This document shows positions 11,985 to 51,369 of a stretch of 64,000 nt of DNA, piece by piece. A model generated the notes under the pieces. It saw only the letters and a program-made list of their open reading frames with translations. It was not told where the DNA came from and did not search any database. Location of the stretch: contig NZ_CP051154.1 in NCBI RefSeq assembly GCF_012317045.1, forward strand, positions 2,604,001-2,668,000. The letters run 5' to 3'. A program made the position numbers and the translations under genes. Source of the stretch: Leifsonia sp. PS1209 (GTDB taxonomy: Bacteria > Actinomycetota > Actinomycetes > Actinomycetales > Microbacteriaceae). Each line of letters opens with the position of its first letter. The stretch's first letter is position 1.

Positions 11985-12042
11985 CGAGATGCCAGTAACT
12001 GTCGCGAAACGCCCGGGATGCGCGACAGATAGTGGCATCTCG
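11985..12042 (+). repeat. family B palindrome, copy 1
   Basis: A 58-nt hairpin with arms 11985-12006 and 12021-12042 pairing at 20 of 22 positions around a 14-nt loop. The left arm contains CCAGTAACTGTCGCG. It lies between the regulator and transporter genes, which are in the same orientation. A second copy occurs in reverse orientation at 13686-13743 with compensatory changes in the arms. It may act as a terminator for the regulator gene. Confidence 0.8.
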
Positions 12043-13601: not shown

Positions 13602-13692
13602 GCTGCGCGAAAGCTGAGCAGCGCGAACGCCGAGCAGCACGAACGCCGAGCAGCGCGAAAGCCGAGCAGCACGAACGCCGAGCAGCGCGAAA
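13597..13692. repeat. 16-bp tandem repeat, six units, overlapping the stop codon
   Basis: Six consecutive 16-bp units of the form GCCGAGCAGCRCGAAM cover 13597-13692, with only a few substitutions. The first unit contains the TGA of the transporter gene (13599-13601). The last ends inside the left arm of the family B palindrome. Units alternate between AGCGCGAAA and AGCACGAAC endings, which suggests duplication of a two-unit block. A likely variable-number locus. Confidence 0.92.
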
Positions 13693-13743
13693 CCAACAAC
13701 TGCCGCGCATCCCTCCGGATGCGCGGCAGTTACTGGTTTCTCG
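13686..13743 (-). repeat. family B palindrome, copy 2
   Basis: Arms 13686-13712 and 13717-13743 pair at 24 of 27 positions around a 4-nt loop. Read on the minus strand it matches copy 1 (CCAGTAACTG, CGCG, GGGATGCGCG), with arm changes that keep pairing (GATGCC/GGCATC versus GAAACC/GGTTTC). It sits between convergent transporter and iolG stops, so it could work as a bidirectional terminator. Confidence 0.85.
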
Positions 13744-36080: not shown

Positions 36081-36147
36081 GCGATCGAGCCGGGACTTGT
36101 GTACGCGAAACGCCGTGGGTGGCGTACATAACTCCCGGCTCGATTGC
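36081..36147 (+). repeat. family A palindrome, copy 1
   Basis: Arms 36081-36106 and 36122-36147 pair at 23 of 26 positions; the loop holds CGCGAAACGCCG. It lies in the 327-bp gap (35865-36191) between the PhoH start and the stop of the aminotransferase gene, both on the minus strand. The rest of the gap shows only promoter-like sequence for phoH. It shares its arm and loop core with copies at 49862 and 50400. Confidence 0.85.
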
Positions 36148-36191: not shown

Positions 36192-37313
36192 TCAGGAGGC
36201 GGACGCGTAGGAGGTGAACGCGCCGCGCAGCATGTCGAACGTCTCCTCCGTCGTGCCCGCGTGCACGGACAATCGCACGTTGGTCGCCCGGATGGATGCG
36301 GTGATCCCGTGGTTGAACAGGGACGCGCTGAGGGCCGTCAGCTGCTCCGGCAGCGGCTCGAGCACGACCATCCCCGCCCGTTCCGCCGCGTTGCGCGACG
36401 AGGCGACCGGGATCGCGTACTCGTCCGCCAGCTCGAACACCCGCTCGACGCCGTCGCCGATCGCAGTGCTGATCGCCGGAACGCCGACCGCCGCGATGTC
36501 CTCCAGTGCCGCGGCGAACCGGGCCTGGGCGATCGGGTCCGGGTTGGAGATGCTGAACGCGCGCGTGCTGTTGCTCGGCTCCCCGACCTCGTCCCACGAC
36601 CCGTCGAGGTCGGCGCCCGTCCACCCGCTGAACACCGGCGTCAGATGCTCGATGGCGCGCTCGCTCGCCGCGAGGAACCCGGTCCCCCAGCCCGCGCGCG
36701 TCCACTTCTGGCCGCCGGAGACGACGATGTCCGCAACCTCGAACGGCGCGTCCACCACACCGAAGCCCTGGATCGCATCCACGATCAGCAGCCGGTCGCC
36801 GATCACCTGGCGGATGCCGTCGATGTCGGCCAGATACCCGGTGCGCGAGTCGACCAGGCTGACCATCACCGCCGTCGTGTTCGGCGTCAACTGCTCCCGG
36901 ATGCGCGCAGGAGTGACACGCTGGTGGTCGGTCTCCAGCCAGGTCGGCGTGACCACCCGCATCGCCTGCGACGCGCGCACCGCCGCATACGTGATGCTCG
37001 GGAACTCCGCCGCAGACAGCAGCACCTCGCCCCCGGTCAGACCGAACGCGGCATGCATGAGCCCGATCGACGCCGTCGGCTGGAACACCACCTGATCGGA
37101 CGGGAACCGCGTCAACGCCGACACCGCATCCCGCACGCGCTGATCCTCGGCCTGCATCCGTCCGATGCTCCCGAACCGGGCCTTGGCGAGAATCTCGTAC
37201 TGCCCGAGCGTTTCCGCGAGGGCGGTCGCCGAGATCGGTCCGACCCGGCCGTAGTCGAGGTAGCCGGACTCCTCGGTGAACGTGCGGGCGAATTCGTCGA
37301 TCGTCGTCGTCAT
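36192..37313 (-). CDS. class V aminotransferase (PLP)
   Basis: A 373-residue fold-type I PLP enzyme. The pyridine-binding Asp lies in LLIVDAIQGFG and the Schiff-base Lys in VSGGQKWTRAGWGTG. The family includes cysteine desulfurases, isopenicillin N epimerase-like and kynureninase-like enzymes, and I cannot choose. ATG 37311-37313 has GGGAGGT 8 bases upstream. The ORF upstream of that start has no family sequence. Confidence 0.85.
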   Translation of the reverse strand: MTTTIDEFARTFTEESGYLDYGRVGPISATALAETLGQYEILAKARFGSIGRMQAEDQRVRDAVSALTRFPSDQVVFQPTASIGLMHAAFGLTGGEVLLSAAEFPSITYAAVRASQAMRVVTPTWLETDHQRVTPARIREQLTPNTTAVMVSLVDSRTGYLADIDGIRQVIGDRLLIVDAIQGFGVVDAPFEVADIVVSGGQKWTRAGWGTGFLAASERAIEHLTPVFSGWTGADLDGSWDEVGEPSNSTRAFSISNPDPIAQARFAAALEDIAAVGVPAISTAIGDGVERVFELADEYAIPVASSRNAAERAGMVVLEPLPEQLTALSASLFNHGITASIRATNVRLSVHAGTTEETFDMLRGAFTSYASAS

Positions 37314-37371
37314 GTGTGGTGACCTCCCGGAACATTCTGTCAGCCGGGAGGGTGGATCGTGCCCACCCGCA

Positions 37372-38385
37372 TCACACCACCGAACGCGCCGGCTCCCCCA
37401 CACGCCCGTCCCCGACCGCACCCGCCCCGGCACCGGCCAGCCACCGGGACACCGGCGGCAGCCACAGCGCGACGGCCGCCGCGACGGCGGCGATGGTCGC
37501 GACGAGGATCCCCGCACCGGAGACGCCCGCGTCGGCGTCGCTGCCGTCCGGCCACATCCCGAGCATGGACGTCTCGGTGAGATCGTTGAGGAGGACCACC
37601 GCGACCGCGCTGACGACGAGGCGGCCGAGCGCCGAACCGCGCACCACGAACAGTGCGGCGATCACCTGCACGGCCACCGCGATCACCGTCACCCAGGCGT
37701 GCACCAGAGCCACCAGCGCAGGACCCCACGCGTTCGGCACGATCAGAGCCTGCGCGACGACCAGGATGCTCGCCACGAACGCGACGAACGCCGCCCCCAC
37801 CGAGAACCACACGAACCGGGCCGCCGCTCCGGCGTTGCCCGCGTCCGCAGCGCCCACGGCGTCCATGCTCCCCGTCACGGTCGAAGACGGCACCCGCACA
37901 CCCCGCACCGCCACCGGCCGACGCGCCGTCAGAGCGAGCACACACGCGGCAATCGTCAGCGCCGCGAATCCCAGCCAGGTCAGCGTGGTCACGCTGAACA
38001 GCGCACTCCAGGCGAAGTGCACGGCGACCGCCACCTGCTGGACCTGCGCCGCGACGATCAGCACGGCCAGCACGATCGCCGTGACGAGCGCGCCGCGCCC
38101 GGAGCCGTCGCGCCCGGAGCCGTCGCGCCCGCGCCGTGCTACGCCGAGCACCACGCACACCACGGTGGCGCCGAGCAGGACCGCGCGCGTGCCGAACTCG
38201 GCCGTGAAGAGCAGACCTTCGTCCATCCCGACGGTCCAGAGAGCGTAGAGGCCGATCACGCGGAGGGCCGACCAGGTGAGGCCGATGCCGAGAAGGGCGG
38301 CGGCGGATGCGATCCAGGCCGCCGCGCGCATCCGGGTGTCGTCGGCGCGCCAGGCCGAGACCGCGAGTTGTCGTGCCGCACCCAT
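37372..38385 (-). CDS. hypothetical polytopic membrane protein
   Basis: A ~337-residue protein with eight or so hydrophobic helices, Ala/Val-rich, no recognised motif. A short duplicated segment RDGSGRDGSGRG (15-bp direct repeat near 38098-38127) lies in a cytoplasmic loop. ATG 38383-38385 is chosen as start; the frame is open to 38415. It lies 58 bp upstream of the aminotransferase and may be co-transcribed. I do not recognise the family. Confidence 0.7.
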   Translation of the reverse strand: MGAARQLAVSAWRADDTRMRAAAWIASAAALLGIGLTWSALRVIGLYALWTVGMDEGLLFTAEFGTRAVLLGATVVCVVLGVARRGRDGSGRDGSGRGALVTAIVLAVLIVAAQVQQVAVAVHFAWSALFSVTTLTWLGFAALTIAACVLALTARRPVAVRGVRVPSSTVTGSMDAVGAADAGNAGAAARFVWFSVGAAFVAFVASILVVAQALIVPNAWGPALVALVHAWVTVIAVAVQVIAALFVVRGSALGRLVVSAVAVVLLNDLTETSMLGMWPDGSDADAGVSGAGILVATIAAVAAAVALWLPPVSRWLAGAGAGAVGDGRVGEPARSVV

Positions 38386-48616: not shown

Positions 48617-49837
48617 ATGGTCGACGGTGTGGTTGAAAAGGTCTCCCCCGCGCTCGCACGGCGCATCGCCCTGGCCGCGCAGGGGTTCGGCCGCCCGCAT
48701 CCATCGACCGTCGGAACACGGCAGCTCAACGGGGTGATCGACCGCATCAACCTGCTGCAGATCGACTCGGTCAACGTGTTCGAGCGCAGCCACTACCTGC
48801 CGGTGTTCGCGCGGGTCGGCGCCTACGACAAGACGCTGCTCGACAGGCTGACGTTCGCGGCGAAATCGCCGCACACCGAATACTGGCCGCACGAGGCCGG
48901 GTTCATCCGGCGCGAGGACTGGCCGCTGTTCCGGTGGCGGATGGCGGCGTACCGCGAGCGCTACGGCACGGACCCGGACAGCTGGTATCAGCGGAACGCC
49001 TCCACGGTCGACTGGCTGCGCACCGAGCTCGCGTCGCGCGGGCCGCTCGTCGCCGGCGAGATCGAGCACGACGCCAACAAGCGGGCCGGCCCGTGGTGGG
49101 GCTGGTCGGACGTGAAGCGGGCGCTCGAGTTCCTCTTCCTGTTCGGCGAGGTGGCCGTGGCCGGGCGCACCCGGTTCCAGCGGAGGTACGCGCTCGCGGA
49201 GGACGTACTGCCCTCGTCGGTGCTCGACACCACGGTGACGACTCCGGATGCGGTCCGCGAGCTCATCCGCCGCTCCGCCGTGGCCCACGGCATCGGCACG
49301 GCGGGCGACCTGGGCGACTACTACCGCATCAAGCGCGCGCCGGCCGTGGCGGCCATCCAGGAGCTGGAGGACGCCGGGGAGCTGATCCCGGTGACGGTCG
49401 GCGGCTGGGAGCGCAACGGACGGCCGGAGAAGACCTGGCTGCACCGGGATGCGCGGCTCCCCCGCAGCGTGTCGGCGACCGCCCTGCTCTCGCCGTTCGA
49501 CCCCGTGGTCTGGTACCGCGACCGGGCGCTGCGCATGTTCGACTTCCACTACCGCATCGAGATCTACACCCCGGCGGAGAAGCGGATCTTCGGCTACTAC
49601 ACGCTGCCGATCCTGCTCGACGACCGCGTGGTGGGCCGCATCGACCTGAAGAGCGACCGGCAGGCGCGCATCCTGCGCGTGCAGTCGGCGTGGTCGGAGC
49701 CGGGCGCTCCCGCCGAGACGGTCGAGCGCCTGGTGCCGCTGCTGCGCACGACCGCCGCCTGGCAGGGCCTCGACGACGTCGCCGTCACCGCCCCGCACCG
49801 CGGCGACCTCGCCCCGCTGCTCGCCGCCGCCCTCTGA
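48617..49837 (+). CDS. AlkZ/YcaQ-like DNA glycosylase family protein
   Basis: A 406-residue HTH_42 family protein. LLQIDSVNVFERSHY contains the QxD catalytic motif (Gln48, Asp50) of crosslink and alkyl-base glycosylases. Three winged-helix units and the C-terminal beta region (LLSPFDPVVWYRDRALRMFDF) follow the family. Could unhook crosslinks or excise alkylated bases; biosynthetic clusters often carry such self-resistance enzymes, but none is visible here. The start could be ATG 48617 or a GTG a few codons later. Confidence 0.85.
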   Translation: MVDGVVEKVSPALARRIALAAQGFGRPHPSTVGTRQLNGVIDRINLLQIDSVNVFERSHYLPVFARVGAYDKTLLDRLTFAAKSPHTEYWPHEAGFIRREDWPLFRWRMAAYRERYGTDPDSWYQRNASTVDWLRTELASRGPLVAGEIEHDANKRAGPWWGWSDVKRALEFLFLFGEVAVAGRTRFQRRYALAEDVLPSSVLDTTVTTPDAVRELIRRSAVAHGIGTAGDLGDYYRIKRAPAVAAIQELEDAGELIPVTVGGWERNGRPEKTWLHRDARLPRSVSATALLSPFDPVVWYRDRALRMFDFHYRIEIYTPAEKRIFGYYTLPILLDDRVVGRIDLKSDRQARILRVQSAWSEPGAPAETVERLVPLLRTTAAWQGLDDVAVTAPHRGDLAPLLAAAL

Positions 49838-49861: not shown

Positions 49862-49928
49862 GCAATCGAGTCCGGACTTATGCACGCGACACGCCGACGC
49901 GAGCGTGCACAAGTCCAGACTCGATTGC
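49862..49928 (+). repeat. family A palindrome, copy 2
   Basis: Arms 49862-49887 and 49903-49928 pair at 24 of 26 positions; the loop has GACACGCCG. A second shell (GCCGCCCCGTCCC ... GGGACGGGCGGC) extends the structure outward. It lies between the AlkZ-like gene and the unknown gene at 49965. GCACGCGACACGCCG is shared with the minus strand of copy 3. Confidence 0.9.
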
Positions 49929-49964
49929 TTGGGGACGGGCGGCGGGCAGGCGTAGGGTGCGGGC

Positions 49965-50387
49965 ATGAGTTCACCGCTGGAGTATCTGGATGCTGCCGGG
50001 GCCGATGAGGCCGACTTCGAATCGCCGATGCGCGAGCTCTACGCGTATCGCGACGGCGACCGCTGGGTGGACGGGTTCGTCACCGGAGTCAGACCGGGCG
50101 GTGCCCAGGACGGCAGCACGATGGTGCAGTTCGACGGGAGCACCTGGGTGCCCGCCTCCGAGGTGCGGGCCTCCGACCACTACGTCGCCGTGCTCCTGAA
50201 CCCGGACGACACCGTCTACGCGGAGGTCGTGCAGAGCTACATCGACGGTCAGCCCGCCGATCCGATCCGCGACGTCTCCACCGTCGACGGCCAGAACGTC
50301 GGCACCCTGTGGCACCCGGTGGATGCGCCGCGCCTGTCGTCCACGCGCATCCCGTACCGCTACGCGGGCACCGCCGAGCTCGACTGA
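49965..50387 (+). CDS. hypothetical protein bracketed by family A palindromes
   Basis: A 140-residue acidic soluble protein I do not recognise. It has repeated strand-like segments (DGDRWVDGFVTGVRPGG; STMVQFDGSTWVPASEV) that suggest a small beta-barrel. No membrane span or cysteines. It stands between family A copies 2 (+) and 3 (-), which face each other. Its Shine-Dalgarno is weak; the start follows the copy 2 hairpin by 36 bp. Confidence 0.65.
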   Translation: MSSPLEYLDAAGADEADFESPMRELYAYRDGDRWVDGFVTGVRPGGAQDGSTMVQFDGSTWVPASEVRASDHYVAVLLNPDDTVYAEVVQSYIDGQPADPIRDVSTVDGQNVGTLWHPVDAPRLSSTRIPYRYAGTAELD

Positions 50388-50399
50388 CGCCATCCCGCA

Positions 50400-50464
50400 G
50401 CAATCGAGCCGGGACTTGTGCACGCGCCGCGCGGCGTGTCGCGTGCAGAAGTCCCGGCTCGATT
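50400..50464 (-). repeat. family A palindrome, copy 3
   Basis: Arms 50400-50426 and 50440-50464; 24 of 25 overlapping positions pair. On the minus strand it carries GCACGCGACACGCCG, identical to copy 2, so its orientation is opposite. It ends two bases before the htpX stop, in a convergent site suited to a bidirectional terminator. Confidence 0.9.
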
Positions 50465-50466
50465 TT

Positions 50467-51369
50467 CTAGAAGGTGGAGCCCATTTTCTCGAGGCGGTCG
50501 ACGCGCTCGGGGATGGGCGGGTGGGTGCTGAACAGGCGACTCATCAGGCTGGGCTTCAGCGGGTTGGCGATCCAGAGGTGCGCCATCGACGAGTTCTGCT
50601 TCTGCATCGGGCGGCCGTATGCCTCGAGCTTGAGCAGGGCGCTGGCCAGCGCATCCGGGTGCCGGGTGGTCATCGCGCCCGTGGCGTCTGCGAGGTATTC
50701 GCGCTGACGGGAGACCGCCAGCTGCACCAGGGTGGCGACCAGCGGGGCGATGATCGCGGCGATGAGGCCGAAGACCAGGATGACCGGGTTTCCGCCTCCT
50801 CCGCCGCCGTTGTTGTTGATGTTGCGGTTGCCCATGCCGCCGAAGAACGCCATGCGGAGGAAGATGTCGGCGATGAAGCCGATGGCGACCGTGAGGCCGA
50901 ACACGATCATCGACAGCCGGATGTCGTAGTTGCGGACGTGCCCCAGCTCGTGCGCCATGACGCCTTCGAGTTCGGCGTCGGTCATGATGTCGAGCAGCCC
51001 CGTGGTGGCCGCCACCGACGCGTGCTCGGGGTCACGCCCGGTGGCGAACGCGTTGGGCGCCGGGTCGTTGACGACGTAGACCGCCGGCATCGGCGTGCCC
51101 GTGGTGATCGACAGGTTCTCGACGATGTTCCACAGGCGCGGGTTGTCGGCCTTGGTGATCGGGATGGCGCCCGACATGCTCAGCGCCTGGCTGCTCGCCA
51201 GGAAGTACTGCACCACCGCGTAGAGCACGGCGCCGATGACCACGACCCACAGGATCGTGTAGCTCTGGTAGATGAAGCTCGCGAGCCAGCCGAGGCCGCC
51301 GATGATGATCAGGAACAGCAGGATCGTGAAGACCGTATTGCGCTTGTTCCTGGCTATCGCCCTATACAT
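50467..51369 (-). CDS. htpX: M48 family metalloprotease HtpX
   Basis: A 300-residue membrane zinc protease. Two N-terminal helices (13-33, 37-57), HELGH at 140-144, further helices at 155-175 and 185-215 and a Glu ligand region (SRQREYLADATGA) match HtpX. The Gly/Asn-rich loop NRNINNNGGGGGGN between helices is unusual. It degrades misfolded membrane proteins. It follows lemA by 9 bp, a frequent pair. Confidence 0.95.
   Translation of the reverse strand: MYRAIARNKRNTVFTILLFLIIIGGLGWLASFIYQSYTILWVVVIGAVLYAVVQYFLASSQALSMSGAIPITKADNPRLWNIVENLSITTGTPMPAVYVVNDPAPNAFATGRDPEHASVAATTGLLDIMTDAELEGVMAHELGHVRNYDIRLSMIVFGLTVAIGFIADIFLRMAFFGGMGNRNINNNGGGGGGNPVILVFGLIAAIIAPLVATLVQLAVSRQREYLADATGAMTTRHPDALASALLKLEAYGRPMQKQNSSMAHLWIANPLKPSLMSRLFSTHPPIPERVDRLEKMGSTF

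Follow-up and report, generated by a model that had tools for sequence, protein, structure and literature searches.

What are the three long and closely similar hairpins of the window, the 64,000-nt stretch of a Leifsonia chromosome analysed here, and how far does their kind extend? The initial annotation had described them as copies of a dispersed palindrome with a common loop core, GYACGCGAMACGCCG, and all three are indeed present, although the 22-bp arms that follow from the pairing profile put their spans a few bases inside those first given (Table 1). The compensatory differences listed between their arms were correct. The core itself was right as to its CGAMACGCCG part, which lies in the loop; its first five letters belong to the stem. 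Each of the three hairpins is 61 nt long, with seven loop letters after a fixed tag that vary by copy, and the CGAAACGCCG form of the tag is found in copy 1 alone among the 34 exact core matches in the genome. Copies 2 and 3 are, as described, turned toward each other on either side of the 140-aa ORF, the former lying 27 nt from the end of its left neighbour and the latter where that ORF and the M48 peptidase gene converge. A Pfam search of the 140-aa ORF product returned no domain over the cut-off.

Table 1. Hairpins, loop tags and neighbouring genes (window positions unless a locus is named).
Feature	Position	Strand	Remarks
Copy 1 hairpin	36084..36144	+	22-bp arms 36084-36105 and 36123-36144; 17-nt loop
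Loop tag of copy 1	36106..36115	+	CGAAACGCCG
Probable gene behind which copy 1 stands	36192-37517	-	gene end 47 nt from copy 1
AlkZ-like DNA glycosylase gene	48617..49837	+	left neighbour of copy 2; PF06224, E 4.3e-67
Copy 2 hairpin	49865..49925	+	22-bp arms 49865-49886 and 49904-49925; 17-nt loop
Loop tag of copy 2	49887..49896	+	CGACACGCCG
140-aa ORF	49965..50387	+	neighbour between copies 2 and 3, outside the element
Copy 3 hairpin	50403..50463	-	22-bp arms, 17-nt loop
Loop tag of copy 3	50432..50441	-	CGACACGCCG on the - strand
M48 peptidase gene	50467..51369	-	right neighbour of copy 3; PF01435
Second hairpin family copies	window 11985-12042, 13686-13743; L277 14645-14702; L279 2268-2323; L285 13983-14042; L286 13493-13554		arms like GAGATGCCAGTAACTG/CAGTTACTGGCATCTC

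Seen over many copies, the element measures about 61-64 nt and forms a hairpin with two 22-23 bp arms and a 16-18 nt loop (16 nt in 54, 17 nt in 100 and 18 nt in 67 of 221 elements). The loop opens with the fixed tag CGACACGCCG and continues with 6-8 variable nucleotides, and with the tag confined to the 5' side of the loop every element has a direction. Each tag position is at least 95% conserved in the 221 elements, a figure conditional on their having been selected for nine or more tag matches. In the 56 copies of the window genome with enough flank, the fraction paired is 0.66-1.00 per position and mostly above 0.9 out to position 22, beyond which it is no higher than in reshuffled flanks; the corresponding limit in 63 Rathayibacter copies is position 23. 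An outer extension of the stem, which single copies had seemed to offer, was rejected on these grounds. Among 58 copies of the window genome the mean pairwise identity is 0.82 for stems and 0.98 for tags, while the variable part of the loop, which is G-rich, reaches 0.41 against the 0.37 to 0.50 expected from composition, with only 2 identical pairs in 1653. Rathayibacter loops are shared more often (30 distinct of 63).

The family extends well beyond the window. In the 4.09 Mb window genome (contig of 4091164 bases, the window being 2604001-2668000) it occupies at least 64 places: the 34 exact matches of the core (16 forward, 18 reverse) and 30 more that were read singly, the 127 both-strand matches of a covariance model (R1, built from the 34 exact copies) having been merged by eye. 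As R1 scored only 150 first-look candidates, 64 is a lower bound. The 10-nt tag is exact at 52 of the 64 places (33 of the 34 core-match copies, 19 of the 30 additional ones) and has at most one change at 61. The observation is thus confirmed, and the family is larger than first noted. Dispersal with conserved structure had been proposed from three copies, to be given up if no further copies or no loop conservation appeared; the opposite was found on both counts, in this genome and in its relatives.

Hairpins are abundant in high-GC genomes, and 26 long ones occur in 444 kb of the window genome's own sequence, 12 of them with no tag-like string and 10 of those 12 outside the family. Could the family be a chance assembly of ordinary, look-alike GC-rich hairpins? 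This reading is refuted here and retains virtually no probability. The core pattern when reversed has no match in the window genome, against 34 for the core itself, and all 34 lie in long hairpins. Over 26 genome rows, largely selected as element carriers and with Rathayibacter sp. VKM Ac-2857 entered twice, the 14-nt string CACGCGACACGCCG has 296 occurrences and its reversed pattern three. Hairpins selected by their stems alone, the tag being ignored, carry at least nine of the ten tag bases in 16 of 18 cases in the window genome and in 18 of 18 in stretches of Leifsonia sp. Root227; the two exceptions are a family member with 8 of 10 tag bases and a poor match with 14 of 18 arm bases. In Rathayibacter the full tag is present in 36 of 36, in loci that had been chosen by a tag-containing pattern.

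Where do these hairpins stand? Copies adjoin stop codons closely on the 3' side, and about half lie between convergent genes: among 219 elements, 109 are in convergent and 84 in codirectional gaps, 7 in divergent gaps and 19 inside a called ORF, counts that are approximate, the gene calls coming from a simple codon-position GC caller. For 33 copies of the window genome, a set in which the motif expression missed the locus of copy 1 (L022), the figures are 23 convergent, 5 codirectional with the tag along and 3 with the tag against the genes, 1 divergent and 1 inside a called ORF (L034). Convergent gaps are occupied more often than other gene pairs in stretches of the window genome (8 of 74 v 10 of 253, p = 0.038), in those of Leifsonia sp. 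Root227 (17 of 68 v 4 of 224, p = 8.7e-9) and in Rathayibacter loci (24 of 63 v 28 of 169, p = 7.6e-4), although these stretches were mostly picked around elements or their syntenic places and their element sets differ from that of the 219, as does the convergent share. The direction of the tag in codirectional gaps is unbiased (46 v 38, p = 0.45). The family is 'oriented', as had been claimed, in the sense that each element carries its tag on one side of the loop, but it shows no bias toward neighbouring genes and is sometimes inverted at orthologous sites. Nor was a replichore bias seen in a hand count for the window genome (38 v 26, p = 0.17), which assumed an origin at coordinate 0 and in which the skews were noise.

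A stable hairpin right behind stop codons, usable both ways, resembles an intrinsic terminator. The loop-tagged family differs in having no T-tract (no run of four or more T behind the hairpin on the motif strand in 56 own and 63 Rathayibacter copies; 1 of 56 and 0 of 63 on the opposite strand) and in conserving a 10-nt loop tag and a family-wide stem sequence, neither of which terminators are known to need. On both tests, that for a T-tract and that for loop conservation, the initial view that this is not a simple terminator set holds. A wider version of the idea would have a host-useful, bidirectional 3'-end hairpin that ends or protects the mRNAs of its neighbours, with a conserved RNA-binding or termination factor bound to the tag. 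The tight 3'-end placement, the convergent enrichment in three sets, the predicted RNA folds (34 copies folded together with their flanks, -39 to -78 kcal/mol) and the persistence of tag and stem where the variable part of the loop looks saturated all speak for such a role, and it may hold alongside the reading that we prefer below. Against it stand the missing T-runs, the direction of the tag, which is random toward the gene (though convergent sites may be transcribed on both strands), the existence of close relatives nearly devoid of the element, and the M48 gene, which has matches in all 28 Leifsonia genomes and is followed by a loop-tagged hairpin in only three of them. We regard it as the chief alternative, possible but less likely than not. 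In 4862 stem pairs of the motif strand, G.T pairs (69) and A.C mismatches (82, which are G.U on the other strand) are about equally frequent, so that pairing is not maintained for one RNA strand only. Rfam gave no family at gathering score on the element in 11 loci, with one FMN riboswitch and four tRNAs elsewhere in them, and in the window its matches were all sub-threshold, mostly microRNA hairpins.

Alternatively, the element might be a duplex binding site for a chromosome-organising or topology protein, set where positive supercoils collect, with the palindrome secondary. Convergent placement and the lack of direction bias would suit this, and a role of REPs in supercoiling has been hypothesised (PMC3733652), but a duplex site has no need of the double changes that restore pairing, described below, nor of the hairpins in which all 34 exact cores lie, even if the core includes five stem letters. 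We consider this very improbable.

The family is found in much of the genus and, more thinly, outside it. R1 had matches in 25 of 28 Leifsonia genomes (G000 denotes the window genome, G012 Leifsonia sp. Root227 and G022 Leifsonia sp. CL147), and their best copies keep the tag and the pairing on greatly changed arms. When 24 such copies, chosen for matching well, were aligned, both partners had changed in 23 of 26 pairs; covariation scored 0.526 vs 0.173 in shuffles, and 89% of cells pair vs 32-44% with slid partners. A more general model, R2, for which only 12 candidates were scored in each genome, found matches at E 1e-6 in at least 28 of 398 genomes of the taxonomic family and at least 5 of 85 genera. 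A scan of a named collection gave at least 119 stretches, with Rathayibacter, Promicromonospora, Sanguibacter, Aeromicrobium and, weakly, mycobacteria among the matches listed. In these other genera the tag occurs on different stems; in the first four there are hairpins in which 20-22 of 22 arm positions match. For mycobacteria there are one hairpin with 20 of 22 (L206) and one with 16 of 22 (L192), and R2 has four matches in the genome of L206 (G814) and none in that of L140 (G813). Seven of the 119 stretches hold no hairpin (L129, L131, L140, L156, L171, L236, L241), the match in L129, L156 and L171 lying at the very end of the sequence piece examined. Records labelled Planctomycetota and Burkholderiaceae are among the seven and were treated as chance or contamination. 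In a phylum-wide draw of 396 genomes a strict pattern matched the window genome alone, so the family is rare there or the pattern misses other stems. Plasmid and phage records and viral contigs gave no match to one own-type element or to one pattern. Long stems with no tag were also seen among the R2 matches, in 3 of 30 loci read (L105, L110, L117); L105 and L110, from a further genus of the taxonomic family, have similar arms (such as GTGAGAGTACG) and a different loop.

Copy number is not constant within the clade. With at most 136 candidates scored per genome, R2 gave 111 both-strand matches in G000, 130 in G012 and 118 in G010, and more than 100 also in G015, G019, G021 and G022 among the 28 Leifsonia genomes; the nearly devoid relatives mentioned above are G011 and G017 with none, G005 and G013 with one each and G007 with two. 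Taking half of the both-strand matches, the number of copies within Leifsonia ranges from 0 to about 65. In Leifsonia sp. CL147 three to five loop-tagged hairpins stand in same-direction arrays with repeated spacers at gene ends (L370, L371, L372). REP/BIME clusters consist of dimers or arrays in set orientation; what was seen of grouping in the loop-tagged family is these CL147 arrays and, in the window, the opposed pair of copies 2 and 3.

If the elements come and go, orthologous sites should be informative. Flanks in the window genome and in Leifsonia sp. Root227 are about 91% identical. Of 18 elements of the window genome, 11 have an element at the same place in Root227, two places are empty and five have no usable syntenic stretch. 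Conversely, of 23 Root227 elements 11 are shared, four face element-less gaps of 29-35 bases and five lack synteny; one faces a hairpin that has lost half of its loop (L301:12039), and one a hybrid whose arms come from two subfamilies (L299). The remaining one faces a gap of 600 bases; this place and one with a syntenic gap of 1552 bases, neither showing an element, were left out of the count. Six syntenic places, two from the first comparison and four from the second, are occupied in one of the two genomes only. No clean insertion was seen at any of the six: the short spacer is unlike the occupied spacer minus its element. The window genome has a hybrid at G000:C1:2802278 (in L277), which joins an arm of the GCCGGG subfamily to one of the GTCCGAAG subfamily and has lost part of its loop.

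Of the 11 shared places, eight have the element in the same direction and three have it inverted. Copy 3 has a Root227 ortholog with an almost identical loop; at the syntenic place of copy 1, Root227 has an element with a different stem and the loop inverted. For two Rathayibacter genomes, 38 elements were tested, 23 of them without synteny in the sequence examined; the remaining 15 all have an element in both genomes, inverted at one place and of like direction at 14, and the tag is identical at every one (in loci chosen for the tag). The eight same-direction ortholog pairs of G000 and G012 contain 37 changed stem pairs, of which 17 are double changes that still pair, 7 are one-sided changes that pair, 12 are one-sided changes that do not and 1 is an unpaired double change. 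Two ortholog pairs with differing stem subfamilies supply 10 of the 17, which may therefore have arisen through replacement by a different copy instead of local correction. Template switching between inverted repeats, treated also in PMC8794818, has as its stated products homogenised arms and spacer inversion (PMC8604942). Double changes and loop inversion are just such products, and covariation alone is therefore no proof of RNA function. Template switching cannot keep the tag, which needs selection or recognition. There is no sign of recent copying in the window genome, where nearly all variable loop parts differ; the intact tag of copies that are old suggests selection acting site by site instead.

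Might the element be cargo-bearing or transposon-derived? A small mobile cassette around the 140-aa gene, one of the possibilities first raised, has not stood: the gene has an ortholog at the same place in 11 of 28 Leifsonia genomes, nine of which have no loop-tagged hairpins adjoining it, the exceptions being the window genome and Root227. We therefore rejected it as cassette cargo, and the earlier interpretation as a whole is partly supported. The gene is common to copy-poor (G007 with 2 R2 matches, G011 with 0) and richer genomes (G006 with 43, G008 with 66, G020 with 30). Like MITEs, the elements are short, non-coding palindromic repeats in many copies, and their sharply bounded arms could be pictured as fused terminal inverted repeats of DNA transposon relics with almost no interior. 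In such relics one would not look for what is seen between genera, where the interior is kept and the ends diverge; the recurrent neighbours looked at include no parent transposon or transposase, and no target site duplication appeared at lengths of 2-9 and six offsets in two genera (1 of 96 tests was reached by at most 2 of 200 shuffles). A MITE origin is, in our judgement, extremely improbable.

The closest likeness is to REPs. The GTAG and CGTC classes, as treated in PMC3733652, are likewise dispersed extragenic palindromes with lineage-particular stems near ORF 3' ends, mostly in convergent or codirectional gaps, and the CGTC class is presented there as having no known dedicated transposase. 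In the GTAG class stems measure 5-13 bp and loops 2-20 nt, in the CGTC class 8-9 bp and 4-5 nt, and the tag stands unpaired at one foot of the palindrome (PMC3733652), whereas the loop-tagged family has arms about twice as long, 16-18 nt loops and its tag in the loop. In the 16 nt that flank the stem on its 5' and on its 3' side, respectively, GTAG occurs at 0 and 0 of 56 own and 2 and 0 of 63 Rathayibacter copies, CTAC at 2 and 2 and at 0 and 0, CGTC at 5 and 6 and at 13 and 9, and GACG at 1 and 7 and at 2 and 18. None of these is near universal, and an unpaired GTAG or CGTC is not a feature of the family. The earlier suggestion of a REP-like element is supported by dispersal, extragenic 3'-end placement and conserved structure; with REP-like distribution and two tested REP features failing, we call the family REP-like only. 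No word beginning 'Actino' occurs in the main text of PMC3733652. In open-licence literature, by titles and abstract starts, we found no earlier description of the family, and matches listed for the tag letters in open-licence paper texts look unrelated by title.

REPs of the best understood kind depend on RAYT enzymes. TnpA-REP reads GTAG together with loop or bulge features of single-stranded hairpins (PMC8266576), and the substrates of such enzymes are hairpins of this kind, strand-specific and with a fixed tag in single-stranded form (PMC8266576, PMC6006769). In this the loop-tagged family is like RAYT REPtrons. It is unlike them in that a Y1_Tnp protein (PF01797) was found neither in the window genome nor in any of 26 genome rows, Rathayibacter sp. 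VKM Ac-2857 again entered twice, while control genomes were positive in 5 of 14 cases. In the sample of PMC6006769, Actinobacteridae carry only subclass 1.1, of IS200 type.

From the anatomy, the copy number, the conserved tag, the 3'-end placement, the lack of direction bias and the presence, absence and loop inversion at orthologous sites, we infer spread by copying, template switching and a factor of a certain nature. On balance we think it probable, if by no great measure, that these hairpins are a dispersing population of REP-like extragenic palindromes with a putative hairpin reader and an anatomy that is new. Spread is favoured because copy number varies greatly within the genus, because six places are occupied in one genome only and because of the CL147 arrays. 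Copies would disperse along the chromosome and survive at the least harmful places, just behind stop codons and most often in convergent gaps. There the arms would remain complementary and the loop would occasionally be inverted, for which template switching between the arms during replication is the simplest route. The fixed loop tag across differing lineage stems suggests a factor that recognises the tag; acting in trans, it would tolerate each lineage's stem or have co-evolved with it. Presumably such a factor would bind the folded, single-stranded DNA hairpin and copy it, as is thought for TnpA-REP, while belonging to another protein family. More tentatively, and with somewhat less confidence than an even chance would give, we speculate that this is a REP-like system of the actinobacteria's own, in which a putative enzyme or binding protein other than RAYT reads the loop tag and recognition is split between the shared tag and a stem that is free to vary by lineage as long as it pairs.

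Several results count against this reading of dispersing palindromes. Besides the lack of target duplication and of clean insertion at the six unoccupied places, the 2 identical variable loops in 1653 pairs give no signal of recent copying in the window genome, and no mobilising gene was found among Y1_Tnp, RVT_1 and IS110-type proteins or recurrent neighbours. RVT_1 is present in 3 and IS110-type protein in 16 of 37 genomes, neither with a visible link to copy number. Mobilisation by IS110 or by a reverse transcriptase was rejected, the enzymes being missing in several copy-rich genomes: IS110-type proteins are absent from G010, G012, G019, G021 and G022, and RVT_1 from G010, G012, G021 and G022, though present in G019. 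Among 60 listed clusters of recurrent neighbours, ten representatives are of ordinary families, with no transposase (short-chain dehydrogenase, LacI and IclR regulators, aldehyde and acyl-CoA dehydrogenases, ROK, ABC transporters, oxygenase and acetyltransferase).

The family is real, is spread over part of the phylum and is unexplained by known REP machinery. REP habits combined with a different tag at a different position, in genomes that, as far as searched here, lack RAYT enzymes, let one ask directly what keeps such repeats going. Arm correction and loop inversion in palindromes can also be studied on this family as a natural data set, in which the variable loop acts as an inner clock.

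Other palindromes occur in the same sequences. In relatives with no loop-tagged element at the end of the M48 gene, palindromic repeats resembling ATTCGT(G/C)ACGAAT are found there, some of them in tandem (L254, L258, L263, L265, L267). The window genome also has a second hairpin family (Table 1), with six copies in the own sequence examined and unconserved loops, whose outer arm GAGATGCCA recurs in the Rathayibacter form of the loop-tagged family.
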